In this document: piece by piece, positions 39,189-54,364 of the stretch
Position numbering within the stretch: position 1 is the stretch's first letter
How the letters are laid out: the number at the start of each line of letters is the position of its first letter
NCBI GenBank assembly: GCA_029262895.1
Contig: JAJCYM010000019.1
Coordinates: 62,001-126,000 of the forward strand
Source of the DNA: Roseivirga sp.
GTDB taxonomy: Bacteria; Bacteroidota; Bacteroidia; Cytophagales; Cyclobacteriaceae
DNA: 64,000 nucleotides
Reading direction: 5' to 3'
Position numbers and translations under genes: made by a program
The notes under the pieces: model-generated
What the model saw: the letters and a program-made list of their open reading frames with translations, nothing else
The model's database searches: none
Told to the model about the DNA's origin: nothing

Positions 39189-39191
39189 TCT

Positions 39192-39665
39192 CTAATCAAT
39201 TGCTACAACGAAAACTCCACTTGATCCTGATACGGATTTCGTGGGGTCATTGTGTTTGGTGGATTCAAAGTTGAAGGTTCCTTTCATCACCTTGTTTCGA
39301 TATTCCGTGACTGTTAAAGTACCGCTATCTGCTAAATAGAAGGTAGTGCCGTCTGCAAGTTGAATTCTGATTCGTGTTGCACTGTCCCGAGTTACGTCAT
39401 GAGTACCCACAATTTCCGATATCATGGAAGGGTCGATAATCAGCTCTACCATATTTCTTCCAGTATCAAATCCCTTAATTAGGATTAATTCTGCATGGGT
39501 AAAAGCCGAAACTGAATCTTGAACAAATGCCGAAACAAACTCACCCGACAAATCCACTTCAAACGTCACATCTATATCTATTGGGTCTATATCATTTGGG
39601 TCACTTTCCCCACATGAAACGATAAGGAATGACAACATCACGATTAAATTGGTAAATCTTTTCAT
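39192..39665 (-). CDS. Lipoprotein of unknown function
   Basis: 157-residue predicted lipoprotein (MLSFLIVSCGESDPND, Cys about 18) with an acidic linker (DPNDIDPIDIDVTFEVD) and a small beta-rich domain containing DSATRIRIQLADGTTFYLAD and MKGTFNFES. I do not recognise a family. It is convergent with rocD, the stops three bases apart, and stands alone on its strand. Confidence 0.65.
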   Translation of the reverse strand: MKRFTNLIVMLSFLIVSCGESDPNDIDPIDIDVTFEVDLSGEFVSAFVQDSVSAFTHAELILIKGFDTGRNMVELIIDPSMISEIVGTHDVTRDSATRIRIQLADGTTFYLADSGTLTVTEYRNKVMKGTFNFESTKHNDPTKSVSGSSGVFVVAID

Positions 39666-39731
39666 TACTTTTTTTATGTAAATCTATTGCCTTGATCAGC
39701 GTGAAAACATCCTTGTAGAAACGTATTTTCG

Positions 39732-39755
39732 AATACCCACCAGAGGGTATTTTTT
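39732..39755 (+). terminator. Plus-strand terminator beyond the lipoprotein gene
   Basis: AATACCC-ACCAGA-GGGTATT with a run of T after it, a good plus-strand terminator. It lies upstream of the minus-strand lipoprotein gene, so it would stop rocD read-through across that gene before the sensor-kinase gene. Confidence 0.65.
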
Positions 39756-39864
39756 ACATATAGCTGGTTTGTAGGTGTTTATGAGTTGACAATGAACTAT
39801 GGAATAGACATCTTGGAGATATAATTATATTGAGGGATGGTAACAGTATCCATTACCTGACCTC

Positions 39865-39872
39865 TAGCTTTG
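39865..39872 (+). promoter_or_regulatory. Promoter -7 element of the sensor-kinase gene
   Basis: TAGCTTTG, a perfect TAnnTTTG match, nine bases before the chosen ATG at 39882. It implies a very short 5' leader. Confidence 0.45.
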
Positions 39873-39881
39873 ATATCAGTA

Positions 39882-41978
39882 ATGACCGACCGATTGATAT
39901 TTATATTTTTTGCCATAACCATTGGCCATTCTTGTTTTTCGCAAGAAGGAGATGCTTTATCAATCGAAAGTGCATTGGCCGACTCACTTATGGCGGCTGG
40001 CCTTGAAGCCAGGTCTTCCGGGAATTATGAACTGTCAGAGAAACACTACCTGGAGGCCATTCGAATCTATTCAAGTCTGAAAATGGAATACCGTTCCGGG
40101 GTTGCCCATTACAACTTGGCTAAGACGTACTATTCCAATTATCAGGATTCCTTAATGCTTTCTGCAGATCGTGAGGCGGTCAGAATATTTGGTTCTTTGG
40201 ACAGCGTGAGGCAGGAAGCAATGGCTAACAATCAGCTAGGGAATCACTTGTCAGGAATTGGCCTTAATACTGAGTCAATTGACGTCTACAAGGAAGCTGT
40301 TCGGCTAAGCCGGTCTATCGGAGATTCGCTTACAGTAAGCTTTTACAAAAACAATATTGGACTTGTTTTAAAAGACCTTGGGGAATATCAAAATGCATTG
40401 GCAATGCTCTACGAATCACTGGCGCTTAAAGAAGAATTTGGAGGCACCGATAGGTCAATTTCAAGTGCTCAGTTGAATATTGGTCTTGTACTTGACTTGC
40501 TGAATAAGCCAGAAGAATCTCTTCTGTTTTATGCAAGAGCCGTTGATTCTAAGCGGAAGGCTGGAGATAGTTTGGGAATGGCCAGAGTATATAGCAACAT
40601 GGCTGTTATCCATAAAAATCTCGAACGTTATGACAGTGCAATCTATTTTATTGACAAAAGCAACGAGATATTATCTGAGTTTGAAGACAATGATTTACTC
40701 TACGTCAATCAAACCAATTTGGGTAATCTCCAAAAGCGCAAAGGCGACTTTGCGAAGGCCAAAGAACATCTGTTGGTAGCCTTATCCCTTGCTACAGATG
40801 AGAATGACAAAAACCACATAGGAGATACCTACCAGAATCTGGGCAGTCTGGCTTTTGATAGTGGAGATGCTGCAGGCTGTGTTGAATACAACCTTAAGGC
40901 TTTAGAACTCACAGAGGAAACGGAGTCTTATGCCCAAATGATGGAAATTTACGAAAATCTGCAGGAGGCCTATGCATCCCTTCGAAAGTTCGAAGAAGCG
41001 CATCAAAGCACATTGCTTTCACTGCAATACAGGGATTCAGTATATCGATTGGAACAAGTAAAGGCAACGGAGGAATTACAGACCAGGTATGAGACTCAGA
41101 AAAAAGAAGACCAAATAGTATTTCAGAATACACAATTGGAGCAGCAGTCATCAATTATTGTCAGAAATCAAATAATCATTGTGACACTTATTGTCATTGC
41201 ACTACTAGGTGTTCTGCTGGTTTGGCTTTGGAGGATAAAACAAAAACGCCAACGTATACTCAGAGAAAAGGAGCATGAAATTAAGCTTAGGGACGCTGAA
41301 ATGACGGCTGTTATTTACTCTCAAGAAAAAGAAAGAAAGCGTTTTGCAACAGATTTACATGATGGATTTGGACAGCTTATCTCAGTGCTAAAGCTGAATC
41401 TGGGAAGATTAAACAATAACAATTCCCGTGATGTGGAACTGAGACAGGAGGTGTTTGGTCAGAGTGAAAACGTAATCAACGATATGTATGCTGAATTGAG
41501 GAATATTTGTTTTGACCTTATGCCACAAACCCTGGTGAAAAGAGGACTTCCCAATGCCATTAGAGAGTTTGCTGACCGTATTAATGTCACCGGAACTAAA
41601 GCAGTTGAGGTCTTAATTTTTGAGGTGGAAGATCGACTTTCAGAGGTTATGGAGGTCTCTCTTTATCGAATTACTCAGGAGTGGGTCAATAATATCCTCA
41701 AATATTCAGATGCCAACTCAATTACCATTCAGCTGATAGGCGGAGGAGATGAGATTACGCTGACCATCGAAGATGATGGATTGGGCTTTGATCCAAAGAC
41801 CTTCTTTGAAGGCAGTGGAAATGGATGGAGAAATATCAATAGCCGATTGAACCTTATCAATGGTGAGTTTGATCTTGATACCAAGCCAACAAGTAGAGGT
41901 TCAATGGTTACCATTAATGTAAGCTTGCAGGAAGCGCCCTCTATACCCGCCAGCACTGAGGAACAAATCACGGCTTAA
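39882..41978 (+). CDS. TPR-containing sensor histidine kinase (NarL-system type)
   Basis: 698-residue sensor kinase. A signal peptide (TDRLIFIFFAITIGHSCFS) is followed by about ten tetratricopeptide-type repeats (residues about 30-400) that should be periplasmic, a membrane helix (IIIVTLIVIALLGVLLVWLW, about 430-450), and a HisKA_3 dimerisation domain with the phosphoacceptor His493 in ATDLHDGFGQLIS. The HATPase_c domain follows (NNILKYSDAN, TIEDDGLGFDP, GNGWRNINSRL). The ATG at 39882 is chosen for the signal peptide. It presumably phosphorylates the response regulator encoded 44 bases downstream; its signal is unknown. Confidence 0.93.
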   Translation: MTDRLIFIFFAITIGHSCFSQEGDALSIESALADSLMAAGLEARSSGNYELSEKHYLEAIRIYSSLKMEYRSGVAHYNLAKTYYSNYQDSLMLSADREAVRIFGSLDSVRQEAMANNQLGNHLSGIGLNTESIDVYKEAVRLSRSIGDSLTVSFYKNNIGLVLKDLGEYQNALAMLYESLALKEEFGGTDRSISSAQLNIGLVLDLLNKPEESLLFYARAVDSKRKAGDSLGMARVYSNMAVIHKNLERYDSAIYFIDKSNEILSEFEDNDLLYVNQTNLGNLQKRKGDFAKAKEHLLVALSLATDENDKNHIGDTYQNLGSLAFDSGDAAGCVEYNLKALELTEETESYAQMMEIYENLQEAYASLRKFEEAHQSTLLSLQYRDSVYRLEQVKATEELQTRYETQKKEDQIVFQNTQLEQQSSIIVRNQIIIVTLIVIALLGVLLVWLWRIKQKRQRILREKEHEIKLRDAEMTAVIYSQEKERKRFATDLHDGFGQLISVLKLNLGRLNNNNSRDVELRQEVFGQSENVINDMYAELRNICFDLMPQTLVKRGLPNAIREFADRINVTGTKAVEVLIFEVEDRLSEVMEVSLYRITQEWVNNILKYSDANSITIQLIGGGDEITLTIEDDGLGFDPKTFFEGSGNGWRNINSRLNLINGEFDLDTKPTSRGSMVTINVSLQEAPSIPASTEEQITA

Positions 41979-42022
41979 TCGGATATTTTTAATAGATTAG
42001 CATAAGTACCTTGCCTGCATAG

Positions 42023-42688
42023 ATGAAATGGCTTGTAAACATCGCAGCAAGGGATAAATTGACCCAAACAGTGAAAATTGTATTAGTTGATGACCATTCG
42101 ATCTTACTCGATGGATTGAAAAAATTGATTGAGGAGGATGACATGCTTTCGGTTGTTGATGCCGTAGGCAATGTGCCAGATGCGATCAGAGCTATCGACA
42201 AACACAAACCCGACCTGGTGATCACAGACTACAATTTGGGTCCGGATGATGGACTAAGTTTGGTTCAGAAATCAAAACGACTATTCCCTGATATGAAGTT
42301 TATTGTGCTGAGTATGCATGATGAAGCCCATCTGGTAAAAGAAATATTGAAGGAAGGCGTGAATGGATACGTTCTGAAAAAAGATACCAAAGAAGAACTA
42401 CTTGAAGCCATATACGCGGTTCGTGGAGGTAAAATGTACATGTCAACAGAAATCAACGCCATGTTGGTCAAGAGTCTTTATGAGCCTGAAGAAGGCAAGC
42501 TGCTCACAGCTAGAGAAAGAGAGATTCTAAAGTTGATTGCCCAGGAATATTCCAATAAAATGATTGCGGAGGAGCTCTTTATTAGCGAACGCACAGTGGA
42601 AACCCACCGAAAGAACATCTTTAGAAAAACCAAGACTGGATCATTAGTAGGGCTTATTAAGTTTGCCTATGCCAATAATTTGATTTAA
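42023..42688 (+). CDS. LuxR/NarL-type response regulator
   Basis: 221-residue response regulator. The receiver domain carries the acidic pair in VKIVLVDDHSILLDGL, phosphoacceptor Asp69 in LVITDYNLGPDDG, the conserved Ser of IVLSMHDE and Lys of GYVLKKDTKEE. The C-terminal GerE-type HTH (about 155-220) has LTAREREILKLIAQEYSNKM and ISERTVETHRKNIFRK. Cognate partner of the upstream kinase. Candidate regulator of the four promoters downstream that share a common upstream site, which is inference. Internal GTG/TTG starts near codons 13-17 cannot be excluded. Confidence 0.93.
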   Translation: MKWLVNIAARDKLTQTVKIVLVDDHSILLDGLKKLIEEDDMLSVVDAVGNVPDAIRAIDKHKPDLVITDYNLGPDDGLSLVQKSKRLFPDMKFIVLSMHDEAHLVKEILKEGVNGYVLKKDTKEELLEAIYAVRGGKMYMSTEINAMLVKSLYEPEEGKLLTAREREILKLIAQEYSNKMIAEELFISERTVETHRKNIFRKTKTGSLVGLIKFAYANNLI

Positions 42689-42689
42689 A

Positions 42690-43127
42690 ATGAACCTGTT
42701 AAAGGCCGTTTATTGCAATCAATACTCCGAACTAAAACCCAAGGGCAAAGAGGCCGCAGCACGTACCAATGGAACGAGATTGCTGGCCGTGGGCTTAGCG
42801 CTATACATTATTTTGGCAGTAGTATTGTTAATGGTGATTTCAGAAAGCTTTGCCGATGGCTTCACCGACCTCATCGAGGACACCTTTGGAAGAAGAAGGG
42901 GCCGAAGCATAGGAAAATTTGTTGCGCTCATTCCATTTCTGATTTCTCTGCCTTTAATAAGGTATACACTGGGACGAGAAGATGCCTACAACCAAATGAT
43001 AGCTGAGTATGAGACACTAGGAGCTGAGGAACAAAAAAGAATATCTAGCAAAGGGCTTTACTTTTTTCTTGGATCATTGGCTGCCTTCGCCATTGCTTTT
43101 ATAATGATCTTCATCTTTCTAGCGTAG
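42690..43127 (+). CDS. Small membrane protein co-transcribed with response regulator
   Basis: 145-residue protein starting one base after the response-regulator stop. Helices are predicted at about 32-52 (LLAVGLALYIILAVVLLMVI), a weaker segment near 75-90 (FVALIPFLISLPLIRY), and a C-terminal pair part near 122-145. A basic stretch FGRRRGRSIGK lies between. No family recognised. Tight spacing suggests it belongs to the two-component operon, possibly as an accessory or feedback membrane protein. Confidence 0.7.
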   Translation: MNLLKAVYCNQYSELKPKGKEAAARTNGTRLLAVGLALYIILAVVLLMVISESFADGFTDLIEDTFGRRRGRSIGKFVALIPFLISLPLIRYTLGREDAYNQMIAEYETLGAEEQKRISSKGLYFFLGSLAAFAIAFIMIFIFLA

Positions 43128-43154
43128 CACAAATTCATTTTTGACGTTGAGGAG

Positions 43155-43225
43155 TCCGTGCTAGCACGGATATCTAAACCCCCAACTCCCAGTATTCTAT
43201 CGTGCTGCATGTACCAATACCTTTG
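43155..43225 (+). promoter_or_regulatory. Shared promoter element, copy 1
   Basis: Perfect dyad TCCGTGCTAGCACGGA at 43155-43170; CCCCC at 43179-43183; GTAT at 43192-43195; TACCTTTG (-7) at 43218-43225. The dyad centre is 55.5 bases before the first base of the -7. Drives the 43243-46095 gene pair. Confidence 0.75.
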
Positions 43226-43242
43226 GATTAAAGATAAAATCC

Positions 43243-43812
43243 ATGAAGACGAGCCTCATACTATTTTCGATTTGTATTTCACTGTCCTGCTTGGGACAGG
43301 AAGAGCAGATCAGACCTAAGGTCAATGAATATTTCAAACTTTTGGAAGAAAAAAAGATATCTGAAGCTTTGGATCATGTTAGTCCGGAACTACTGGATAT
43401 GTTGGGTAAGGACACCTTTGTGAATTTGTTCAACCAAATGTTCAACACGCCTGGTATCGAATTTAGTCTCGGCAACTTCAAAATTAACTCCATTAGTTCA
43501 GGGTTTGAGTTCGATGAAAAAACCTTTGTACTGGTCAAATATCAGAACAAAATGACATTCAAGGTTGATATGTCAAATGACAAGGAGGGGCTTCTTGGGC
43601 CAATTCTATTGGGCACTTACAAACGCCAATATGGAGAGGATAACGTGACCTTTGAAGAACCGGGCACTTATATTATTGACCTCGACAAGGACATGTACGC
43701 TATTCAAAGCAGCGCTTATGAAGGCTGGAAGATCATGGAATATGAAAAAACGATGGCCATGTTTCTGGATAGGTTAATCCCAGTGGAGGTCAGAAATCAC
43801 TTTAAGAACTAA
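43243..43812 (+). CDS. Exported protein of unknown function
   Basis: 189-residue protein with signal peptide (LILFSICISLSCLGQ; the Cys-Leu-Gly order argues for ordinary cleavage after GQ). The mature part resembles small NTF2/DUF3887-like proteins in its early helix (NEYFKLLEEKKISEALDHVS), but I would not assign it. It is the first gene behind shared promoter copy 1 and lies three bases before the large secreted-protein gene, with which it must be co-translated. Confidence 0.7.
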   Translation: MKTSLILFSICISLSCLGQEEQIRPKVNEYFKLLEEKKISEALDHVSPELLDMLGKDTFVNLFNQMFNTPGIEFSLGNFKINSISSGFEFDEKTFVLVKYQNKMTFKVDMSNDKEGLLGPILLGTYKRQYGEDNVTFEEPGTYIIDLDKDMYAIQSSAYEGWKIMEYEKTMAMFLDRLIPVEVRNHFKN

Positions 43813-43815
43813 GTC

Positions 43816-46095
43816 ATGAAAAAGCTACTAATTCTATCAGGTCTATTCATTTGGATGTCTCTGGACGCCCAGGTATTGGAAGTACCCACACTGAAATCAA
43901 AGGGGGTTGCGCTCGGAGCGGTTAAGGTGGAATTGAATCAATTCGATTACGTAAAGGACAAAGGGTTAACTCTATCGCAGTCAGATGTTGAAACTTATGA
44001 TGAAAAAGGACGATTGATTTCCATCGACAGAAAAGTACAATCGACCGGTCTCAGTTATAGATATACTTACAAGCTCAGTAAGAAGGGGATTCTTGAAGAA
44101 GAAAAGATCGTTAACTCTGCAAATAATCAAACGGTAAGGACGACAACTTACACCTACAAGAAGGGCCTGCTGGTAACTACAACCCAGGTTCAGGGAACGG
44201 TGACCTTTGTTAAGAACTATTCCTACAACAAAGATGGCCATATGATAAAGATGGAGGCCATTGAAAACGGAACTGCGAAGGGGGAAGAGATTTATCAAGT
44301 GGATGAAGAGGGTAGACAAACTAGAAAATCTCAAAAGTTACCGACTGAGGAAGTAGCAAGAACTATTTCAACATTCACTTATTCAACAGAAGGCAATCTT
44401 GAAACTAAGACTGAAACCCGAAATGTCAATAACGTAAAGTATGAGATTGTTGTCATCAAAGACCTTAATACAGAACGTAATCTAAAGGAGACCAACAAAA
44501 ACCTAAGTAACTCCAAGTCAGGATTTAGCAACTCTCTATTTGTTGATGATGAAAAGGGTAGTTGGACAAAAGGGGAGGTCCTGGATAACGGGCACGGCAG
44601 ACCACGCCTCGTTTTACGAAAGATCACTTATCAGGATGGTTCAAGCACCGGAAGGACATATATGGCACCTGAAGATGACAGAGCACAATACTATCGACAG
44701 AGTAATGATTTTCAGGTACTTATCAATGGCGCTGTAGCAAATACAACAAGAGCCTTTGGGGTTCCTAACAGTGATGACCGCTTAACCTATCATCCGCTAA
44801 GTACTTCATGGATTCTTCTTAAAGACTACAACAAGGAATCATACCAAACAACATGGCATGAAGGACAAATGATCACTCATACGGAAAATGAAGTGCTCTG
44901 GGCTAAGGGTGCTAAAGGTGTTGCGGTCTACCAAAACGGAAAAGCTCTAGAGAGTACTACAGCGTCAACATCGGGGACCTATAATGAATACCCCATTGTC
45001 GATACACGCGTGCTCTACTTTGGCAAAGAATTGCAGAAAACCCTCGTAGTGAAAGGTGTAGGTAAGGGAGATGATTTGGGTAAAGTCCAGATTGCCGATT
45101 TCACAGACACCCATCGCTATTGGGGCAAGGCTTCGGACAGCACCTTTACGCTGGTTACTTATGGTGGTTATACAGGTATACATCAGCAAATCGAAGATGT
45201 TGAAGGAAACAAATTGGTGGCTGCAACAAAGCAACTGACGCAGTGGTATAGCTTGCCTAAATTCAACGAGGGATTTGATAATGGCAGTCCGGGAGATTTA
45301 TTTCCAGCTGCCTATTTGACTGACCCAGCAAAGGAGATTAAGGAGGGAGCATTGTTTACACATGATCTTGAAAATCTGGTTTATGACAATCTGAAAGACA
45401 ATAAGTTCAGGCTTAAAACTGAAGATGGTAAGCTAGTGACCAATGTTACTAATCAGACCTTGAAAACCCACGACAATGAATTGATCGCCTATTTTCCGCT
45501 GACCAAGCGGTTTATTCTAATGGAGAATTACTATGAGGATTCAGATGCTGAGGATTTTTTGGATCAACCGGTGACAACACTGATGGAAGGCCATCCAATG
45601 GGATATTATTTATACAATGACGGTGCGAAAATTGCTTTCTATCGGTCCTACCAGGAGATAAGAAGGTATCGTTTTGATGCCAGAAAGCTGAATGACCAAA
45701 CAAGGAAATACACGGCTGTTTTATACGACTCCACCACCACTAAGAGCTACAAGATGAACTATGATCTGGATCAGGAAGCTCGAATGGGCCCGATTGAAGA
45801 ACTCCCATATGACGACATCAACACCTACATTTTGAAATTTGAATCAGGTGGGTGGGTCATATTTGAGCAAGGTACCCTTGTAAGGAATTATGATTATAGT
45901 GTAATGGATGGAAACCACGTGATTCATTTTTTTAAGGATCAAATTACCGGAAAGGCCAAGGCTTATAAGTTTAAAGATTTCAAGGATGCCGAAGCTGGTG
46001 ATTTTATCAGTTCTGAATTAGTCTCTGAAAGAGAGCTTGTAGATCTTTCCTTAAAGCTTAAAGTAAATCCACTCAAACCTATTGAAAAGAAATAG
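43816..46095 (+). CDS. Large secreted protein, paralogous to 48077 product
   Basis: 759-residue protein with signal peptide (LLILSGLFIWMSLDAQ). Residues about 50-230 are beta-rich with YD/RHS-like short units (YTYKKGLL, YSYNKDGHM, FTYSTEGNL). A shared block LRKITYQDGSSTGR near 275, followed by FQVLINGAVANTT, is closely echoed in the 48077 product (LRQITYADGTVTGH, FYVWADGKDIRQT, FRVIINGSIASG). The C-terminal half repeats lines such as YYLYNDGAKIAFYRS. No enzyme motif seen. Probably periplasmic or surface-exposed. Confidence 0.72.
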   Translation: MKKLLILSGLFIWMSLDAQVLEVPTLKSKGVALGAVKVELNQFDYVKDKGLTLSQSDVETYDEKGRLISIDRKVQSTGLSYRYTYKLSKKGILEEEKIVNSANNQTVRTTTYTYKKGLLVTTTQVQGTVTFVKNYSYNKDGHMIKMEAIENGTAKGEEIYQVDEEGRQTRKSQKLPTEEVARTISTFTYSTEGNLETKTETRNVNNVKYEIVVIKDLNTERNLKETNKNLSNSKSGFSNSLFVDDEKGSWTKGEVLDNGHGRPRLVLRKITYQDGSSTGRTYMAPEDDRAQYYRQSNDFQVLINGAVANTTRAFGVPNSDDRLTYHPLSTSWILLKDYNKESYQTTWHEGQMITHTENEVLWAKGAKGVAVYQNGKALESTTASTSGTYNEYPIVDTRVLYFGKELQKTLVVKGVGKGDDLGKVQIADFTDTHRYWGKASDSTFTLVTYGGYTGIHQQIEDVEGNKLVAATKQLTQWYSLPKFNEGFDNGSPGDLFPAAYLTDPAKEIKEGALFTHDLENLVYDNLKDNKFRLKTEDGKLVTNVTNQTLKTHDNELIAYFPLTKRFILMENYYEDSDAEDFLDQPVTTLMEGHPMGYYLYNDGAKIAFYRSYQEIRRYRFDARKLNDQTRKYTAVLYDSTTTKSYKMNYDLDQEARMGPIEELPYDDINTYILKFESGGWVIFEQGTLVRNYDYSVMDGNHVIHFFKDQITGKAKAYKFKDFKDAEAGDFISSELVSERELVDLSLKLKVNPLKPIEKK

Positions 46096-46145
46096 GGCTA
46101 AGGGCGAAACTAAGGCCCTATATCTTAAGAAATTTACTCCTAAAT

Positions 46146-46176
46146 CGGCACAAATGAGCTTTGGTCATTTGTGCCG
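46146..46176. other. Long perfect hairpin after the 43816 gene
   Basis: CGGCACAAATGA (46146-46157), 7-base loop, TCATTTGTGCCG (46165-46176): a perfect 12-bp stem 50 bases past the stop. A weaker stem TAGGGC...GCCCTA lies at 46093-46120. No T-run follows the 12-bp stem, so it is not a classical terminator; it may stabilise or process mRNA, or bind protein. Confidence 0.6.
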
Positions 46177-46208
46177 GAATTGACGGGTTTATATTAAGCC
46201 AACTGGTT

Positions 46209-46280
46209 ATCCGTGGCAGTACGGATAGAAAAACCCCCAAGCCCTTGTATGTTTTTACAGGTTGATGTCAGTGAAATTTG
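46209..46280 (+). promoter_or_regulatory. Shared promoter element, copy 2
   Basis: ATCCGT-GGCAGT-ACGGAT at 46209-46226 (16-bp core 46210-46225); CCCCC at 46234-46238; GTAT at 46247-46250; GAAATTTG (-7-like) at 46273-46280. Spacing identical to copy 1. Drives the 46304 lipoprotein gene. Confidence 0.7.
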
Positions 46281-46303
46281 ACTATCAATTAAATGTAGAA
46301 GCA

Positions 46304-46765
46304 ATGAAAAGAAACATAATATTAGGATTGGCCCTTGGTCTAATTTGTCTAAGCTGTGAAACCGATGAAGCTCCCAGCGCTGAGGATTGTGACGGGCAGG
46401 TATGCATGGCATCTGTAGGAACTGATGAAACTGCTGTCACTGTACCGGCTGAAATACATGGGACTTTCAATATGGCACTCACATTTGCGGAGCCAAATTC
46501 TCCTGTGCCTTTGGGTACTAAAGTCACCTTTACCATTTCGGCCAACAAACTCATAGTAGCCTATGAAGGAGAAGAATGCTTTTCTATTGAGAACGCTGTG
46601 GCGCGATTTGGGCCACCAGCAGGCAATTACACCTTCAAAGCGGCATGTATAGGAGATATCGCATTTAACATTTCTCAAAATAGCGATGGCAGTCTGAATG
46701 AAGTGAATCTTGAGCTGGCTAGTGGACCTGGATTTTACGGGCAATTTACACTAACGGGTGGCTGA
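46304..46765 (+). CDS. Small lipoprotein of unknown function
   Basis: 153-residue lipoprotein; the start at 46304 gives a clean signal (MKRNIILGLALGLICLSCET, lipidated Cys18), whereas an in-frame upstream ATG would add 14 residues before it and lie too close to the promoter. The mature domain is beta-rich with four further Cys (EDCDGQVCM, GEECFSI, AACIGD), possibly two disulfides. Family not recognised. It is the only gene behind shared promoter copy 2. Confidence 0.7.
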   Translation: MKRNIILGLALGLICLSCETDEAPSAEDCDGQVCMASVGTDETAVTVPAEIHGTFNMALTFAEPNSPVPLGTKVTFTISANKLIVAYEGEECFSIENAVARFGPPAGNYTFKAACIGDIAFNISQNSDGSLNEVNLELASGPGFYGQFTLTGG

Positions 46766-46776
46766 AACGCATTAAA

Positions 46777-46847
46777 TACCCACTAGCCCTGAACCCGAAA
46801 CCCCTGCTCATGGGGATTTCCAAAGGAGCGATTAAGTGGGAGCTTTA
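46777..46847 (+). promoter_or_regulatory. Shared promoter element, copy 4 (degenerate)
   Basis: TACCCACTAGCCCTGA at 46777-46792 matches copies 1 and 3 at 10 of 16 positions but lacks the dyad. CCCC lies at 46801-46804, GGAT at 46814-46817 and GAGCTTTA (-7-like) at 46840-46847. Every block sits at the same offset as in copies 1-3. Precedes the 46873 gene. Confidence 0.55.
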
Positions 46848-46872
46848 ATTATCATTTAAAAATCAATCAAAC

Positions 46873-47910
46873 ATGAAAAAGACATTCTTAATTTGGGCGC
46901 TTTTGTTCACGATGGGAGCAATCGCTCAAGCACAACAAGTAGGAAAAATGGATATTAAGGAGTCTGCCGTAGGCCAGAAGAAAATGGTCAAGGCAGCAAA
47001 GAGAATTTATATCTCCGAATTTTCCGTGAATTATCAGTTAGCCTATAGCCAGACATCAATCGCCAGAGGAGGACGAGAATTTGGTGGAGGGTATAGAGGT
47101 GATGCAAAGGCATCTCTCAGCGTTGCAGTACCTGGTGTTGATCCAGAAGAATTGCAGAAAATCACCGATGATGTATATCAGGAGTACATTCAAAAACTTA
47201 AAGATGCTGGCTTTGAAATAGTAGGTGCTGAAGAAGCAGCCGGGACAGACATTTTTAGTGATTGGGAGCGTCTTGAGGGCGGCACAATAAGCCAAGCCCA
47301 GTTTCCCGGATATCTGGCCACAACGCCTAAAGGCTTTCACTTCTTTGTGCGAAAGATTACCAAAAAAGGTAGAGCTAAAAATGGAGTCTTTGAATATGGC
47401 AATAAGCTCTCTAGACAGATGAATGGAGTTATTATAGCCAAAGTAAACCTGACCATTCCCTTTGTGGAATCAGCCGAAGGAGGAGCGAGCAAGGCACTCA
47501 GAAAGACAGTAGGGGGTGTGGCAAAAGTGGTGCTTAGACCCAATTTCAGTCTTTCACCAAGGGAGTCAGTGCAAATTAGTAAAACAGGAAGTGCCAGCGC
47601 TATTACTCAAAGCAGCTATATCTACTTCGAGAGCTTAAAGAATCAGGGAAATGCCAGATATGACTTGAAAAAGGCTGTGAAAATTGATGGTGTTTTTGAA
47701 GATAAAAAGTACAAAGCTTCTAAAGCTGCCGATCAGGATTTATGGGGAACAGATGCAGGTCATCTTAGAGTCTTCCATTTCAGTGATCAGGAAGTAGCTT
47801 CAACACAACCGATTCCATGTGAACCATCAAAATATATAGGTGGAGCTAAGCAAGTGGTGAATGAGTTTGTGATGAATTCGCTGAACAGTTTTCTCGCTCT
47901 AATGAAATAA
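46873..47910 (+). CDS. Exported protein of unknown function
   Basis: 345-residue protein with signal peptide (LIWALLFTMGAIAQAQ). The mature part starts with a helix, then RIYISEFSVNYQLAYSQTSI, a Gly/Arg-rich turn (ARGGREFGGGYRG), and VPGVDPEELQKITDDVYQEY, followed by beta strands. The order (strand, loop, helix with YxxY, strand) recalls assembly or lipoprotein-like factors, but I cannot assign a family. It stands between shared promoter copy 4 and a GC-rich hairpin at 47971-47990. Confidence 0.68.
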   Translation: MKKTFLIWALLFTMGAIAQAQQVGKMDIKESAVGQKKMVKAAKRIYISEFSVNYQLAYSQTSIARGGREFGGGYRGDAKASLSVAVPGVDPEELQKITDDVYQEYIQKLKDAGFEIVGAEEAAGTDIFSDWERLEGGTISQAQFPGYLATTPKGFHFFVRKITKKGRAKNGVFEYGNKLSRQMNGVIIAKVNLTIPFVESAEGGASKALRKTVGGVAKVVLRPNFSLSPRESVQISKTGSASAITQSSYIYFESLKNQGNARYDLKKAVKIDGVFEDKKYKASKAADQDLWGTDAGHLRVFHFSDQEVASTQPIPCEPSKYIGGAKQVVNEFVMNSLNSFLALMK

Positions 47911-47970
47911 CAAGATTGCGATTGTTGTGAATTTTGGTTGTCACAGATAATTGTAATCGATGTATGGAAG

Positions 47971-47990
47971 AAGCCCCGGAAACGGGGTTT
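47971..47990 (+). terminator. Probable terminator after the 46873 gene
   Basis: AAGCCCCG-GAAA-CGGGGTTT: a GC-rich stem with a GNRA tetraloop and a short T tail, 60 bases after the stop. Confidence 0.5.
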
Positions 47991-48001
47991 CCTGATTTAA
48001 G

Positions 48002-48072
48002 TACGTGGTAGCACGGATGTCATTTTCCCCTGATAGACGGATACTCAGCAGTCACCTCAGGCACTAGCTTTA
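48002..48072 (+). promoter_or_regulatory. Shared promoter element, copy 3
   Basis: TACGTGGTAGCACGGA at 48002-48017 (stem CGTG...CACG); CCCC at 48027-48030; GGAT at 48039-48042, here part of a second ACGGAT; TAGCTTTA (-7-like) at 48065-48072. Same spacing as the other copies. The -7 lies only four bases before the ATG at 48077. Confidence 0.68.
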
Positions 48073-48076
48073 TCAT

Positions 48077-49591
48077 ATGAAAAAGTCGATCTCATATTAT
48101 CTTATCAAATCAGTGATTTTCGTGCTGATGATTGTTCTCACCAAATCTATTCTTCATGGTCAGACTGATGAAGTAGCTGGTGATTTTGAACATTTGACTG
48201 TCAGAAAAATTAAAGGAGATGTGGTTCGAATAGAGGAGCGGAAATATTATAAGGAAGGAAGAGACAAACCTTATCTTCTGAGTCATTCCGATGTATTCAG
48301 ATACCATGAAGGTAAACTCATGGATGCTTATCAAAAGTTAAATCGGACTGATTTTAATAGAACTTTTCGCAAGTTTATCTACAACAGACAAGATCAATTG
48401 ATAACAGTGGAAATCTCAACCAATGGTAGCAATCTTCTTAGCCAGAAATTGATTTTACTCTACGATGATAAGGGTAATGTAAGCAAAGTTGAAAAGCACA
48501 GCGGAGAGAAAATGAGCGCTGTGACTTATGCCTATAATAGCAAATCCCAATTAGTAAAGAAGTCCAAGACCAATGAATCGGGAGAGATATATAGGGAAGA
48601 GTCGTATTCATATTATGCGGATGGTACCCTCTTGGCTTGGGAAAGTAAGAATTTGTCATCACAGAAGAAGGAGACTAAGCACTACAGTTATGCCAAAGAT
48701 GGAGGCAATACGATCACCACAATAAAGACAGATGACCGCGAGGGGAAAACTACTACAATCTCTACCGTAAATGAACTGGATTTTGAAATTAAGAACAAAT
48801 ACGAAACAGCTAACTCAGTTGGTAATCATGACGGAGTATATCGCTATGCTGTAGATAAAATGTTGAATTGGATTAGAATGGATAGAACCCCATTCAATCA
48901 TCGCGGCAGTTATACCTTAAGACAGATTACGTATGCTGACGGAACCGTTACCGGACATCTCGAACCTAATGAGCTAGATGAATACGTTAACTGGAAAAGG
49001 ATAAATACCAATTTATTCTATGTGTGGGCAGATGGAAAAGATATTCGTCAAACTGTGAGTTCAACATATCTGAAAAATTCTTCCGATGTCCTCGGACATG
49101 ATTTAGCATCAGGCAAGTCGTTTATCATGAAGAATTTCAAGAATGATTCAACTGACACTTGGAGGTCAGTTGAGTCCATGAAAACAGGAGTTGATGTATA
49201 TTGGATTGCGAATGAAAGTGCGCTTAGCATCTATCACAAAGGCAGTTATATCTCTAATAGAGAAGCGCTAATTGTCAATAACGATGTGATTGTTTATATC
49301 CCCTCACTCCACCAGAGCTATTTATTAAAAGATTATAAGGATAGAAAAGATGGCCTCTTGTATGCTGCCGAAACATTGCCACTAAGCACCAACATTTTTT
49401 GGTATAAAACCGCACCTGATAATTTCCGAGTGATTATAAATGGATCAATTGCGAGCGGTGCACTTCCTAATGATTGGATTAATTCAACTGATATTCTGAT
49501 AAAGGATGTGTCTGGAAATCCAAGATTTATGTTGAAAGGCTTTAAGGCAGCAGAAGTTGGTGAGGTTCATCCTGTGACATCATACAACTGA
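48077..49591 (+). CDS. Secreted protein, paralogous to 43816 product
   Basis: 504-residue protein with signal peptide (VIFVLMIVLTKSILHGQ). Residues about 75-210 contain YD/RHS-like short beta units (FIYNRQDQLITVE, LLYDDKGNVSKVE, YAYNSKSQLVKK, YSYYADGTLLAWE). The middle block LRQITYADGTVTGH and later FRVIINGSIASG align with the 43816 product, so the two are paralogues, this one shorter. Function unknown, probably periplasmic or surface-located. First of four closely packed genes (next start five bases after the stop). Confidence 0.72.
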   Translation: MKKSISYYLIKSVIFVLMIVLTKSILHGQTDEVAGDFEHLTVRKIKGDVVRIEERKYYKEGRDKPYLLSHSDVFRYHEGKLMDAYQKLNRTDFNRTFRKFIYNRQDQLITVEISTNGSNLLSQKLILLYDDKGNVSKVEKHSGEKMSAVTYAYNSKSQLVKKSKTNESGEIYREESYSYYADGTLLAWESKNLSSQKKETKHYSYAKDGGNTITTIKTDDREGKTTTISTVNELDFEIKNKYETANSVGNHDGVYRYAVDKMLNWIRMDRTPFNHRGSYTLRQITYADGTVTGHLEPNELDEYVNWKRINTNLFYVWADGKDIRQTVSSTYLKNSSDVLGHDLASGKSFIMKNFKNDSTDTWRSVESMKTGVDVYWIANESALSIYHKGSYISNREALIVNNDVIVYIPSLHQSYLLKDYKDRKDGLLYAAETLPLSTNIFWYKTAPDNFRVIINGSIASGALPNDWINSTDILIKDVSGNPRFMLKGFKAAEVGEVHPVTSYN

Positions 49592-49596
49592 GTGTT

Positions 49597-50118
49597 ATGG
49601 AAAGTTATTTGAACAGACTAAGTGCCTTGTCTAAAGAGAAGACATACACCTTAAATGAAGAGGGAATTGCAGATGAAACAGGTGCTTGGAAATATTCCGA
49701 CATCAAGCACGTCCAATTGAAATTTACCCCCACACGATACTATGGAGGAATTTATCAATGCGTCATAACCTCGCAATCAGGTGAGGTCACATTGTCTAAC
49801 AGACGATATAAGGGGCCGGCTGATTTTGACTATCAAAATGAGGCTTATAATCGGTTTGTTAAAGAGCTTCATAAGAAGCTAGAGTCAATAGCCGGTATGA
49901 GCTTTGGAAGCGGTATGTCAAGGCCAAGATTTATGCTTGAGTTGATTGGAAGCCTTATTTTCTTCCCCCTCATTGTGTATGCGATTTTCGCCCTCGGACA
50001 GGCCTTGGTTGGCGGTCTTATACTATTGGTTCTTGCCGTCAGATTGATACCCTATTATCGAAAAAACAAACCGCGTAGTTATCGGGCATCAGAGATACCA
50101 GATGACCTACTGCCCTAA
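49597..50118 (+). CDS. Membrane protein with N-terminal PH-like domain, unknown
   Basis: 173-residue protein. Residues 1-95 look like a small cytosolic beta domain of PH-like type (TYTLNEEGIADETGAWKYSD, YQCVITSQSGEVTLSNRRYK), and a hydrophobic pair follows (FMLELIGSLIFFPLIVYAIF, LIGGGLIL-type segment, about 110-150), then a basic tail. The PH-like reading is a guess from the pattern. It is the second gene in the 48077 operon. Confidence 0.6.
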   Translation: MESYLNRLSALSKEKTYTLNEEGIADETGAWKYSDIKHVQLKFTPTRYYGGIYQCVITSQSGEVTLSNRRYKGPADFDYQNEAYNRFVKELHKKLESIAGMSFGSGMSRPRFMLELIGSLIFFPLIVYAIFALGQALVGGLILLVLAVRLIPYYRKNKPRSYRASEIPDDLLP

Positions 50119-50150
50119 AATTTTAATGATTAACCTTAAATAGAATAGAT

Positions 50151-50549
50151 ATGAAAGCGATTTTGAAAGTATTAGGACTGCTGGTGGTGGCATTTGTGGC
50201 CTATGTGGTCTTCAACCTCGATGGCTACGGTGAAAAACTAGAGTTTAATGGTACAGACGTTTACTATACTGACTTGGTAACAGAAGCCGAGGCTCAAAAG
50301 CTAGGTGAATATTTGGTTGAGTCAGAATTTGCAGATGGAGGTGAAAAATCAGTTCAACTATCCAAACGTGATTCAACCTATCTGTTCAGAATGGTGGTCA
50401 TTGATGGCGTTACCGAGGACAGTACAAATGATGTCACTTTTTTGGCCATGACCTATACCTTGTCCTTTGGCGCATTTGATGGCGCTCCAGTAGAACTGGA
50501 GGCTTGTGATGATACATTTGAAACAATCAGAGTTTACGGTAAAAAATAG
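50151..50549 (+). CDS. Small membrane-anchored protein, unknown
   Basis: 132-residue protein: one N-terminal hydrophobic segment (ILKVLGLLVVAFVAYVVFNL, residues about 4-23) that anchors or exports it, then a globular domain with ELEACDDTFETIRVYGKK at the end. KRDSTYLFRMVVIDGV suggests strands. No family recognised. Third gene of the 48077 operon, with the next start one base after its stop. Confidence 0.6.
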   Translation: MKAILKVLGLLVVAFVAYVVFNLDGYGEKLEFNGTDVYYTDLVTEAEAQKLGEYLVESEFADGGEKSVQLSKRDSTYLFRMVVIDGVTEDSTNDVTFLAMTYTLSFGAFDGAPVELEACDDTFETIRVYGKK

Positions 50550-50550
50550 G

Positions 50551-51315
50551 ATGAATTCTAAGTCGCGCTTTACCCTCGGCATCATTGTGCTCACGGTTTT
50601 ACTGATAGGCTTCTTCACAGTCGCCTTGATGATGGGCATGTTTCTTTCTATTAAAGGGTTTGCCCCGGAAAGACTAGGCTTCTTGATTATAAGTGTTGGT
50701 CTGGGTTTCGTTACGCTTCGAAAGATGATTAGTCTGAATAAGAAAGAGACCAGATCAAGAGTTGATGCCGTAGTGAAGGATCATCATGAGTTTATTACTG
50801 AATGGGTTATAGCACCTTCACAATGGAAGACTTTTGTGACTGAAAAACTTGCCTTTGATCTTAAGGAATCGAACGGATATGGATATACGCTTGGTGGAAT
50901 TCTGGGAGTCATCTCTGGCTTTGTATTTTCCAATGAGTATGCCATTGAAATGGCACTGCTGATTGGTGCTGTGGCCTTCCTGTTTTTCTTTTTTGTAGGT
51001 AAATATGGGGCCTTGGTGGTTGCAAAGAAGAAATTTGGAAAACTTGAAAAACTTGAACAAGGTGAGGTTCACTTTGCCAAGGAGGTCATCATCTTTAATG
51101 AGAAGTTGATAATTGTATCAGGTTTTGGTCAAACTTTGAGATCATTTGCGAAAGAAGATCGCTTTGGCATGAACTTGTTAACCTTCACTGTTCAAACCGG
51201 TTTTGGACACAGAAGAAATACGAGTCAGTTTATGATCCCGATCCCTTTAGGTGGCCAAGATGAAGCAGATAAACTCCTCAACTATTACGCGAGCCTAATA
51301 CCAAATCAAATATAA
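50551..51315 (+). CDS. Membrane protein, YcxB-like C-terminal domain possible
   Basis: 254-residue protein starting at the ATG one base after the previous stop. Four hydrophobic segments: about 9-32, 40-52, a Gly-rich one near 115-135 (YTLGGILGVISGFVFSNEY) and 137-156 (LLIGAVAFLFFFFVGKYGAL). The C-terminal ~90 residues (GEVHFAKEVIIFNEKLIIVS, then FMIPIPLGGQDEADKLLNYY) resemble the PH-like C-terminal domain of YcxB-type proteins; tentative. Last gene of the 48077 operon. Confidence 0.6.
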   Translation: MNSKSRFTLGIIVLTVLLIGFFTVALMMGMFLSIKGFAPERLGFLIISVGLGFVTLRKMISLNKKETRSRVDAVVKDHHEFITEWVIAPSQWKTFVTEKLAFDLKESNGYGYTLGGILGVISGFVFSNEYAIEMALLIGAVAFLFFFFVGKYGALVVAKKKFGKLEKLEQGEVHFAKEVIIFNEKLIIVSGFGQTLRSFAKEDRFGMNLLTFTVQTGFGHRRNTSQFMIPIPLGGQDEADKLLNYYASLIPNQI

Positions 51316-51466
51316 CATGACGGATACAAAACATTTCTTACCGCTTGCTCTGCGTTGAAAAAATTAGCCATAACGATGCTATGCCTTCATTTTTCGCCTT
51401 AATCAAGCGATAATAATTTAATTTCTATTCGCGCCATTTCATAATTGAATTGGTATAATAGAATGA

Positions 51467-54364
51467 CTAGTTACCGTTGCCTCTAAACCTATTCCTCAAT
51501 TGTTGAAATCGTTGCTGCTGCGGGTCAACAGGTAAGGGATCATCCAAACCAAAACTTCGAATGTTGAAGGTAAAGGTGAGCATAAAGTACTGTGTAAGAA
51601 TCTGTGTTTGAGAATCCTCTATATAGGAGCCATTGATAGACCTTTGGATGCTTTGATTTTGTTTGAGCAGGTCAAAAATGGTGAATTTGATTTCCCCTTT
51701 TTTCTTCAGCACCTTCTTTCCAACTTCAAGATTCCACAAGGCGAAATTCTGATTAAAACCATCTGTTAGACCGGAGTTATAAGTATGCCTGACAGTAGAT
51801 CTGAATACAATGCCATCACCGAAAATCCAGTTCAATCTCAATCGGGTGCCTTGCGAAAAGTAATCCGTGCTGCTCACTGTTTGCAAAGTGTTGCTAACGT
51901 TGTTATAGCTTGAGTTACTCGATAACGTGAAATCTATTTTTTCACTGATGTTGCTACTGAGCACCCAGCCCAATCCAACAGTCGGGCTGGAGGAAAAATT
52001 GAGTTCAGAATTGATCATTTCTGGTGTACGTGTATAGTTAAAATTGGCAGTGAAGTTCAGGTTAGACTTAATGAATCCCAGGGGTATGCCATATGAAACA
52101 AAACTTCTTACTGTTCTGTAGCCTTCCAAATTGACCGACTGTAGTAGCTGCGCGCCCGGCTGGAGGTTTATTCCATTCACTGTCTCTGGGCCACGTGAAG
52201 CAATAGTGGTGCTGTTACCAATATATTTGTCAGATAATGATGCCATAACCATGGCAAAAAACGTGGTTGACTTTTCAGTATTGGTAGTGGTAAAACGTAC
52301 AGTGGCAGTGTGTTGATAGTTTTGATCCAGGTTAGGGTTGCCGGCAGTAATGAACAGTGGATTTGAGTTGTCTATTACGTTTTGCAACTGTGATATTGAT
52401 GGCGCGTTCGTACTCGTGCGATAAGTAAAGTTTAAATTCTTGGTGCGCGTGATTCTCAATCTATAGGAAATTGAAGGAACAAAGTTCTGAAATGTCCTTT
52501 TGACATTGTCATCAATAGGAAAGGTCTGGTCATTATCCAATTTGGCTGACTGGTAGTTTAGATTTAATGTCAAGTTTGCCTTTTCCCCCCTCAGGTTGTA
52601 ACCTGCCCCAATTCTATTGGTGGTATAGATGCTTTCGAAAGTATTGCTCAATGGTATATTGAGATCTGAAAAAGTGCCGTTGGCTTCGTTGTAGTCGAAA
52701 GTCCTCTTGTCCGACTCCGTTTTTTGGTAGCCCAGTCTATAGGTAAGTGAGAGCTGGCTTTTGTCATTTAATGGTTCTGTATAAACCACATTTGTATTGA
52801 TGTTGTAGCCGGGACTGTTTAAGTCAGCGAATTGATCCAGGTTGTTGGTGGTTTCAATACCATTTCTGAAAAAAGAGTTTTCAGAATCCAGGAAGCTCTC
52901 TCCATTACTTTCGTTAAAGGCCGTAGACAGATTAACAGAAATTGTTCTACCGCGTTTTTCAAATCTGTGTCTCCACAAAATATTATTAGAGAGATTATAG
53001 GCCAGAAGTTTCGATGAGTTTAGGGTGTTTGTTGAATTTAACGTTTCGCCATTGTTGAGCGTAAGTCCATTTACCAGAGCCGATCCATCATTTTCTTGTA
53101 GGGTTAGTCTTGGGCGTATTTGCAATGAATTCTTGTCATCGATTGTGTATTCGATTCGTGCACTGAAACGGTGATTGGTGTTTGTACTTGGTACAAAACT
53201 ATTCTCTTCGTAAGTCTGGCCTTCATTGCCCGGAAGAATGAATTGTCTGAAGAGAGACTCATCAGCATTGTTTTGTGAGGTATTGAAAAAGTAACTGCCT
53301 GTTATCTTGAATTTATCGTTTCCGGTGGCTGAATAGTTTACGCCAAAGGCCTTGGTTTCTGAAATACCGCCTTGATTGCCAACAAGGAAATCACTGGTAT
53401 TGCCACCATTCCCGAATCTGGCACCACCACCACCGGTGGCTCCACCTCCGCCACCGCGTACCCTTTGGCCACCTCCGCCACGGCCACCTCTTCTTCCACC
53501 GCCACTGGTTACGCCAAGTAAATCACTTGTTGCAAAATTCTGAATATTGATGTTGTTGATTTGCCCCAGAAAGGTGGTGCGGCTTTTTTCACGGAATAAA
53601 TTGATGCTTCCTCCAGCATTGTATTTGTTGTCATCTCCAGCTCCTGCATATACCTTACCGAATGTGCCATTGCGCATACTGGCTTTGGTGATAATGTTCA
53701 TGGTTTTGGTGGTTTCCCCATCTGCGAAACCGGTAAACCGGGCTTGCTCACTTGGCTCATCATAGACCTGAATTTTTTCAATGATTTCAGCGGGTAAATT
53801 GGTCAGGGCAGCATTTGGATCATCTCCAAAAAACTCGCGACCATCCACCAATACCCTGGTAACATTTTCACCCTGAGCCTGAACCTGACCATTCTGAATC
53901 ACAATCCCAGGCATTTTTTCTATGAGATCCTGAGCGGTGGCATCCGGATTAACCTTAAAAGCCACGGCATTCATTTCCACCGTATCACCGTTTTGCACTA
54001 CCCGCTGGCTGAGCCCTTCTACGGTTACGCCCTCCAGTAGTTTTAAATCCACTGGCATGGCAATGATGCCCAAATTGACAGTGCCATCTTTTACCTCAAT
54101 CGCCTTTTTAAAAGTTTTATAGCCTACAAAGGAGATAGTAAGGTCATAATTCCCATTTAATACTCCGGTCAGTCTAAAGTCACCTTGTTGATCACTGATT
54201 TTGACCTTGTAAGTGGAATCAGACAGATTTTGTAGGGCCACTGTTGCGGCAAATAGGGGCACCTGATCGGTGCTGTCTTTAACTGTACCCTTAACCACCC
54301 AATATTGACCAAATAGGGGTGATGCACTTAAAATGAGGAGTGTTGTGATGATAATTTTTTTCAT
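51467..54364 (-). CDS. OMP beta-barrel family protein, TonB-receptor-like
   Basis: 965-residue outer-membrane protein. A signal peptide (KKIIITTLLILSASPLFGQ) is followed by a carboxypeptidase-regulatory-like domain (about 23-105, with VTISFVGYKTF-like GNYDLTISFVGYKTFKKA), a plug-like segment (about 120-230, VQAQGENVTRVLVDGREFFG) and a C-terminal barrel of the OMP_b-brl_3 type (from about 430). Residues about 283-325 hold a Gly/Arg-rich insert. Family members may import unknown ligands or act as surface assembly proteins; no SusD partner is adjacent. Confidence 0.88.
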   Translation of the reverse strand: MKKIIITTLLILSASPLFGQYWVVKGTVKDSTDQVPLFAATVALQNLSDSTYKVKISDQQGDFRLTGVLNGNYDLTISFVGYKTFKKAIEVKDGTVNLGIIAMPVDLKLLEGVTVEGLSQRVVQNGDTVEMNAVAFKVNPDATAQDLIEKMPGIVIQNGQVQAQGENVTRVLVDGREFFGDDPNAALTNLPAEIIEKIQVYDEPSEQARFTGFADGETTKTMNIITKASMRNGTFGKVYAGAGDDNKYNAGGSINLFREKSRTTFLGQINNINIQNFATSDLLGVTSGGGRRGGRGGGGQRVRGGGGGATGGGGARFGNGGNTSDFLVGNQGGISETKAFGVNYSATGNDKFKITGSYFFNTSQNNADESLFRQFILPGNEGQTYEENSFVPSTNTNHRFSARIEYTIDDKNSLQIRPRLTLQENDGSALVNGLTLNNGETLNSTNTLNSSKLLAYNLSNNILWRHRFEKRGRTISVNLSTAFNESNGESFLDSENSFFRNGIETTNNLDQFADLNSPGYNINTNVVYTEPLNDKSQLSLTYRLGYQKTESDKRTFDYNEANGTFSDLNIPLSNTFESIYTTNRIGAGYNLRGEKANLTLNLNYQSAKLDNDQTFPIDDNVKRTFQNFVPSISYRLRITRTKNLNFTYRTSTNAPSISQLQNVIDNSNPLFITAGNPNLDQNYQHTATVRFTTTNTEKSTTFFAMVMASLSDKYIGNSTTIASRGPETVNGINLQPGAQLLQSVNLEGYRTVRSFVSYGIPLGFIKSNLNFTANFNYTRTPEMINSELNFSSSPTVGLGWVLSSNISEKIDFTLSSNSSYNNVSNTLQTVSSTDYFSQGTRLRLNWIFGDGIVFRSTVRHTYNSGLTDGFNQNFALWNLEVGKKVLKKKGEIKFTIFDLLKQNQSIQRSINGSYIEDSQTQILTQYFMLTFTFNIRSFGLDDPLPVDPQQQRFQQLRNRFRGNGN

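Follow-up and report, generated by a model that had tools for sequence, protein, structure and literature searches.

A predicted two-dimer operator and compact regulon beside a TPR-kinase/NarL-type regulator pair in Roseivirga

The subject of this analysis is a 64,000-nucleotide stretch of Roseivirga sp. (GCA_029262895.1, contig JAJCYM010000019.1, positions 62,001 to 126,000; hereafter the window) and, within it, a cluster of promoters adjoining the genes for a tetratricopeptide repeat (TPR) sensor histidine kinase and a NarL-type response regulator. The promoters share one layout, in which the half-site (A/G)(C/G)G(G/T)AT forms a pair of 18-bp inverted repeats, 24 bp apart from centre to centre, and a Bacteroidota -7 element follows at a fixed distance. 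It is probable, at roughly 0.82 by our own estimate, that the adjacent regulator binds these repeats as two dimers and activates six units of the cluster, including its own gene. Binding by this particular regulator, the dimer stoichiometry, activation rather than repression, the transcription starts and autoregulation are all points that we infer from sequence comparison. The evidence that carries this reading is the conservation of the whole layout in relatives, its restriction to one cluster in the genome, and the co-occurrence of sites and regulator across genomes.

Promoter architecture and the six window sites

An earlier sequence-only reading of the window had proposed four promoters of one conserved architecture, built on 16-mers at 43155, 46210, 46777 and 48002. 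All four positions were verified in the window sequence, as were CCCC, GKAT and a -7-like element at the offsets it gave; the gap from the 16-mer to the 8-base -7 element is exactly 47 bases throughout. The -7 elements of these four promoters, read by eye, are those of sites C to F in Table 1. The four promoters are thus real, but the window holds six sites, which are part of a larger set. CCCC and GKAT are likewise present, but are reinterpreted here as the two arms of a second inverted repeat that the earlier reading missed. Box 1 has a 16-bp 7-2-7 layout, and box 2, centred 24 bp downstream, includes both of these motifs.

The bare 16-mer pattern TnCnnnnnAGnnCnGA is not rare, as the window has 12 matches (one palindrome contributes two of them, once per strand) where 6.35 would be expected, and a count of 12 is reached in 2 of 100 shuffles. 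It was therefore judged to lack real significance, and the analysis was moved to the whole architecture. A tight pattern, CGTGSYAGYACGGATRNNNNNNWCCCC, drawn from the three strongest 16-mers and allowing up to three mismatches, is found at four places in the 5.79-Mb genome. Three are the window sites of those 16-mers, each with at most 1 mismatch, and the fourth carries 3 mismatches. The backward control of this pattern gave no match in the same genome.

The strength of the window sites was assessed with a held-out matrix of 75 columns, made from 59 non-redundant sites in 53 other loci whose regulators are at most 67% identical to the one studied here. The six window sites occupy ranks 1 to 6, at 39.9, 38.5, 27.5, 24.3, 22.8 and 19.1 bits. 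A seventh match, at 39708 (17.3 bits), consists of the two boxes of site A read on the plus strand, towards the kinase gene. Sites E and D each also give a low match on the opposite strand (4.3 and 3.1 bits, respectively), and the best place unrelated to any site reaches 0.6 bits. When the window is read backwards, the best score is -1.3 bits. In a control of 100 random 64-kb windows, both strands included, one window has a single place above 18 bits (24.7 bits) and none has two, against six in the study window. The ranking is the same when L066, whose regulator is 84% identical over part of the protein, is included in the matrix. Single-block scores were taken from that version: site A, the weakest of the six, has a -7 block worth 1.0 bit alone, and site E combines a weak box 1 (2.7 bits) with a strong box 2 (15.6 bits).

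The boxes of site A (39708-39751) can be read both ways, so that the lipoprotein and kinase genes may share a single box pair; on the kinase side, the -7 element looks weak by eye. The regulator gene's operator (41942-41975, within site B) overlaps the last codons of the kinase gene, and the C-terminal tail of the kinase (IPASTEEQITA) may for this reason be shaped by DNA binding rather than by protein function.

The layout was followed into relatives by way of 80 regulator loci, the best 80 of 427 relatives, each taken with up to 9 kb per side. A 48-base matrix, started from the four window sites first described and refined by iteration, detected 124 sites above 14 bits in these loci and the window, compared with 2 in a reversed-sequence control. 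Matches below 20 bits (12 of the 124) were dropped before spacing, linkage and targets were counted. Across the 112 sites that score 20 bits or more, the -7 element AnCTTTG keeps a fixed position, with A at position 65 in 91% and T at positions 68 and 69 in 96% each. The spacing is therefore kept in relatives; its loss in close relatives was among the outcomes that the sequence-only reading had named as counting against it. For profile building, sites below 25 bits and sites more than 80% identical to another were removed, leaving 84 references, of which 80 were aligned (L071 8846, L084 6302, L089 234 and L091 9637 were left out by eye); the 80 non-redundant sites align nearly without gaps. 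When the blocks were searched independently on both strands, so that palindromes may count twice, box 2 lay as far from box 1 as modelled in 69 of 84 pairs and 1 bp closer in 10; for box 2 and the -7 element, the distance agreed with the model in 102 of 193.

In the mechanism proposed, the TPR sensor kinase, its repeats in the periplasm, would phosphorylate the NarL/FixJ-type regulator, which would bind as two dimers, one on box 1 near -67.5 and one on box 2 near -43.5. Sigma-A RNA polymerase would be recruited to a promoter with the -7 element AnCTTTG, box 2 replacing an upstream promoter element. Six units in the 8.4-kb cluster would be switched on. Three are the genes or operons that begin at 43243, 46873 and 48077; the others are the regulator gene and two genes for lipoproteins. 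The box centres are derived by reference to Flavobacterium psychrophilum, where the sigma-A -7 element TAnnTTTG is placed at -12 to -5 (PMC9723704). It is because of the positions on this scale, and because NarL activates ogt from similar positions according to PMC7419079, that the promoters are read as being of a two-dimer activator type. The predicted start of the site F transcript falls on the ATG at 48077, so this mRNA may lack a leader; alternatively, translation may begin at a start codon further in.

NarL-family proteins both activate and repress, and this dual action would fit a regulator that binds the boxes and represses, or that activates some units and represses others. Such control is unlikely here, given that box 2 is held at a fixed distance upstream of the -7 element, which is the position of an activator, and not over the start site.

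Distribution of the sites and the regulator

Within its own genome the layout is confined to one place. A scan of the 5.79-Mb genome with profile R1 (75 positions, window sites included), in which 150 of 1098 first-look candidates were scored, returned six matches with expectation values (E) below 1e-3 (2e-8 to 1.5e-4), and the next match has E 0.11. All six lie at 101679-110072 of contig 19, corresponding to window 39679-48072, and the compact regulon that had been suggested from the window is borne out for this genome. The same genome has 16 GerE matches, yet the sites are found in one cluster, which argues that they belong with this regulator and not with the GerE family at large. Two other regulators of the genome (L135 and L152) have different recognition helices. 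A partial match (E 0.15) is located directly after another GerE regulator gene, on contig 52. At L135 on that contig, a box-2-like promoter (2999-3051, minus strand) follows a different regulator gene (a 213-aa open reading frame (ORF), 3069-3710) and is followed in turn by a gene for a 685-aa exported-looking protein, a layout like that of the study locus with another recognition helix.

The regulator consists of a receiver domain (PF00072, E 1.1e-22) and a LuxR-type GerE domain (PF00196, E 1.6e-20), and matches the NarL structure 1a04 over residues 17-210 of 221 (E 6.4e-28). Among the best 80 of 427 relatives, the closest is 95% identical and comes from a Roseivirga metagenome-assembled genome; the other records are mostly Roseivirga, Belliella, Cyclobacteriaceae or similar. 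The recognition helix ISERTVETHRKNIFRKT is nearly invariant in these 80 loci.

Co-occurrence was examined first at the level of the family, with a full-length site defined by E <=1e-4 and a match start at model position <=5, and a regulator relative by E <=1e-55. Full-length sites were detected in 35 of 148 genomes, all of them among the 41 with a regulator relative, and in none of the 107 others (Fisher p 4e-28). Of these 57 full-length sites, one of which ends at model position 58, 43 are within 10 kb of the regulator gene. At the level of the class (sites E <=1e-5, regulator relatives E <=1e-40), sites were found in 13 of 295 genomes, again all among the 46 with a regulator relative (p 6e-12). 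The paired site and regulator searches were taken to cover the same genome sets, as their numbers and listed handles agree. The proposal that the adjacent NarL-type regulator is the putative binder is strongly supported by this pattern.

Ten of the class-level site genomes lie outside the family, and each has exactly one regulator relative. These ten orthologs, found without the ETHRKNIF peptide that was among the seeds used to fetch the 80 loci, are 41-61% identical to the regulator, and in all ten the recognition helix is the same or carries one T to S change (VESHRKN in two). A site is located within 10 kb of the relative in six of the ten, the nearest being at 35, 59 and 73 bp in G427, G390 and G242 (coordinates compared by eye), although G390 contains the training locus L042 and is therefore not independent.

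Several results weigh against this reading. The p-values overstate independence, because the genomes are related by descent and the loci that trained the profile all adjoin a regulator gene. The identity of the helix in L016-L095 is partly selected, since ETHRKNIF was among the seeds that fetched those loci. No site was found in 16 of the 80 regulator loci, and at the thresholds used a full-length site is likewise missing from 6 of the 41 family genomes and 33 of the 46 class genomes in which a regulator relative is present. Fourteen of the 57 full-length sites lie further than 10 kb from the regulator or on another contig. Among 20 class-search loci chosen for lacking a profile match (19 outside the family, and G017 inside), a weak site is present in 2 of 10 with the helix and in 1 of 10 without it, so the recognition helix does not predict a site in these loci. 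The random place at 24.7 bits outscores sites A, B and E, which are convincing as members of a set and not singly, given that one random window reached that score and none had two. Finally, 21 of the 78 family matches, in 12 genomes (5 with the regulator and 7 without), consist of box 2 and the -7 element alone and were counted apart.

These box-2-only matches were considered as part of the regulon and set aside as belonging to another, as 1 of the 21 is within 10 kb of the regulator and the genes downstream are varied (for example, exopolysaccharide-like by eye in L137); they are probably the promoters of another NarL-type regulon. The promoters in L136-L141, L143, L144 and L146-L149, which are from other family and order genomes, have a box-2-like palindrome alone (AAAATACCC-N7-GGGTATTTT or a near variant), and its distance from a CTTTG-like -7 element is unchanged.

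The sites more than 10 kb from the regulator or on another contig, 14 in number, would also be expected if a different transcription factor bound the boxes and the linkage reflected one conserved gene cluster. This is improbable, however, as the far sites are confined to genomes with the regulator, in 14 loci, counting the window, the regulator gene itself has a site immediately upstream, and the 7-2-7 layout is that of this regulator's protein family (PMC7419079). In 35 of the 80 loci a site lies on the regulator's strand between the regulator gene start and 400 bp past its end, where a terminator or leader could stand, and the palindrome could accordingly be an RNA element. We regard this as very improbable, because the palindrome is upstream of the next gene's -7 element in a fixed geometry, and a scan of window 38000-53000 against Rfam, with E up to 1, found no family.

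A mobile or repetitive extragenic palindromic (REP)-like element, or recent duplication of promoters, might be suspected from the near-perfect palindrome of box 1 at the strongest sites and from the several copies close together, but this reading is rejected as scarcely credible: the copies in the genome are few, each is ahead of a gene, and both boxes and the -7 element persist from genus to genus and from family to family while the spacer bases diverge, in keeping with the earlier preference for selection over recent duplication.

Target genes and neighbouring features

A same-strand ORF start lies 20-350 bp downstream of 105 of the 112 sites; looking the opposite way the count is 14 of 112, and for random positions it is 736 of 5000. 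A simple signal-peptide rule is satisfied by 64 of 90 distinct targets (kinase and regulator families excluded), against 216 of 964 other ORFs in the loci. The regulator gene itself is the target in 14 loci (13 fetched loci and the window), with the 16-mer starting 75-79 bp before the ORF start, and the kinase gene is the target in one locus, L016.

The commonest target family is that of the 345-aa exported protein, which follows 19 of the 105 sites with an assigned target. Another 10 sites precede a second group of proteins of similar length; its members are 15-18% identical to the window protein, and kinship at this level is a guess. Alignment A2 was built from 28 of the 29 first-group members, 8 of the 10 in the second group and 2 of the 4 pieces that make up a third. 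The 189-aa family follows a site in 7 loci and the 153-aa lipoprotein family in 5 (the window included in both counts), and the 173-aa family follows its own site in 12 other loci. The 759-aa protein is related to the product of 48077-49591 (23% identity, alignment A5). The main target families gave no useful match in Pfam, NCBIfam and PDB profile searches; for the 345-aa family, there was no Pfam match for the window protein and no PDB match for the family profile. A weak PDB match for the 189-aa family (E 0.26) was ignored.

The lipoprotein downstream of site A scores 24.4 bits with PF19765 (DUF6252), below the gathering score of 27.2, and is accordingly described as DUF6252-like. Far sites in G020, G043, G039 and G097 precede similar small lipoproteins, and other far sites precede other genes. 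Two of these lipoproteins, in L156 and L159, were scanned and pass the DUF6252 model at 43.4 and 50.7 bits, and the lipoprotein after the far site in G039 (L161) matches the window protein with 27.5% identity (E 5.6e-6). A wider and decidedly tentative idea is that of a class-wide envelope surveillance system in Bacteroidia, in which the TPR sensor would watch exported proteins and the two-dimer operator would drive a small, variable exported set, which may feed back on the sensor. The driven set would most often be the 345-aa family and in some genera DUF6252-like lipoproteins, and would act on the envelope.

Table 1. Predicted sites and neighbouring genes in the window (E, expectation value; held-out score in bits)
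Feature	Positions	Strand	Description	E	Held-out score
Site A	39679..39750	-	Box 1 39734-39749; -7 TAGATTTA 39679-39686; upstream of lipoprotein 39192-39665	7.4e-5	19.1
Site B	41942..42014	+	Box 1 41944-41959, within 3' end of kinase ORF; -7 TACCTTGC 42007-42014; upstream of regulator gene	6.0e-6	22.8
Site C	43153..43227	+	Box 1 43155-43170 (perfect palindrome); box 2 43178-43195; -7 TACCTTTG 43218-43225	2.0e-8	38.5
Site D	46208..46282	+	Box 1 46210-46225; box 2 46233-46250; -7 GAAATTTG 46273-46280	2.1e-8	39.9
Site E	46775..46849	+	Box 1 46777-46792; box 2 46800-46817; -7 GAGCTTTA 46840-46847	1.5e-4	24.3
Site F	48000..48074	+	Box 1 48002-48017; box 2 48025-48042; -7 TAGCTTTA 48065-48072	1.3e-4	27.5
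DUF6252-like lipoprotein	39192..39665	-	Predicted site A target; passes signal-peptide rule		
TPR sensor histidine kinase	39882..41978	+	ATG 39882, TTG 39870 possible; HisKA_3, HATPase_c		
NarL-type response regulator	42023..42688	+	Response_reg and GerE; recognition helix ISERTVETHRKNIFRKT; true start codon may lie further in		
145-aa membrane protein	42690..43127	+	Directly after regulator gene; no site of its own; membrane segments by eye		
189-aa exported protein	43243..43812	+	Predicted site C target; alignment A3; passes signal-peptide rule		
759-aa protein	43816..46095	+	Second gene after site C; looks exported by eye, not flagged by script rule		
153-aa lipoprotein	46304..46765	+	Predicted site D target; lipobox by eye, not flagged by script rule		
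345-aa exported protein	46873..47910	+	Predicted site E target; passes signal-peptide rule		
504-aa protein	48077..49591	+	Predicted site F target; exported by eye, not flagged by script rule		
173-aa membrane protein	49597..50118	+	Downstream of site F; not flagged by signal-peptide rule; alignment A4		
Two membrane proteins	50151..50549, 50551..51315	+	Possibly the end of the site F operon; membrane segments by eye; rule flags 50151, not 50551		

Elsewhere in the window, five large ORFs (54-1568, 1561-4203, 8457-11153, 11146-13752 and 25682-28342) look by eye like FtsX/MacB-type permeases, and four of the five have an N-terminal segment of the kind PPKWA.R.L.WYC. On the minus strand, 60348-63977 encodes a 1209-aa repeat protein with long Asp/Ser-rich linkers, the C-terminal segment of which resembles a type IX sorting domain.

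Comparison with known systems

TPR-kinase/LuxR pairs occur in Bacteroidota, and the protein families in the present cluster are known ones. Full-text searches of open-licence PMC papers, some on neighbouring topics, found no description of the operator and regulon, which agrees with the earlier statement that none was known. Sequence alone gives a precise operator and a genome-wide regulon prediction, in which uncharacterised, mostly exported protein families are tied to one signal. The prediction lends itself to experiment in Roseivirga itself and, among related genera, in Belliella or Indibacter, for example (loci L047 and L054).

By topology read by eye, the kinase has a signal-peptide-like N-terminus, TPR repeats, which are predicted to be periplasmic, and one membrane segment. 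With its histidine kinase core and the adjacent LuxR-type regulator, the pair has a FimS/FimR-like architecture. In the available text on Porphyromonas gingivalis (PMC11053733, PMC1974823), FimS likewise is a sensor kinase with periplasmic TPR repeats and has a partner regulator, FimR, which binds the mfa1 promoter directly and controls cell-surface proteins; the signal of FimS is described there as unknown, and that text gives no FimR site consensus. The two systems differ in that the kinase studied here scores 73.8 bits against a FimS equivalog cut-off of 600, and in that the Pfam and NCBIfam searches returned no fimbrial family match among the targets. On the regulator side, the equivalog models indicate that the protein is not a NarL or MctR ortholog, since it scores 141.5 bits against the NarL cut-off of 250 and also falls below that of MctR.

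The half-site described here differs from the NarL heptamer, which is TACYYMT. The closest parallel in layout is the ogt promoter of E. coli, which NarL activates from 7-2-7 sites at -44.5 and -77.5, and at which an engineered single site at -67.5 also works (PMC7419079). Both cases involve a NarL-family regulator, here a predicted one, and a pair of 7-2-7 inverted repeats ahead of a single promoter. The repeat closer to the promoter is at -44.5 in ogt and at about -43.5 here, and the engineered ogt site coincides with the position of box 1 at about -67.5. The site centres are 33 bp apart in ogt and 24 bp apart here, and the targets differ, as do the promoters, with -10/-35 elements in E. coli and a Bacteroidota -7 element in Roseivirga. 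In sequence arrangement, the ogt-type tandem is nevertheless present, with two inverted repeats upstream, the nearer adjoining the promoter. This resemblance suggests a mode of promoter activation that may be common to phyla with different promoter elements.

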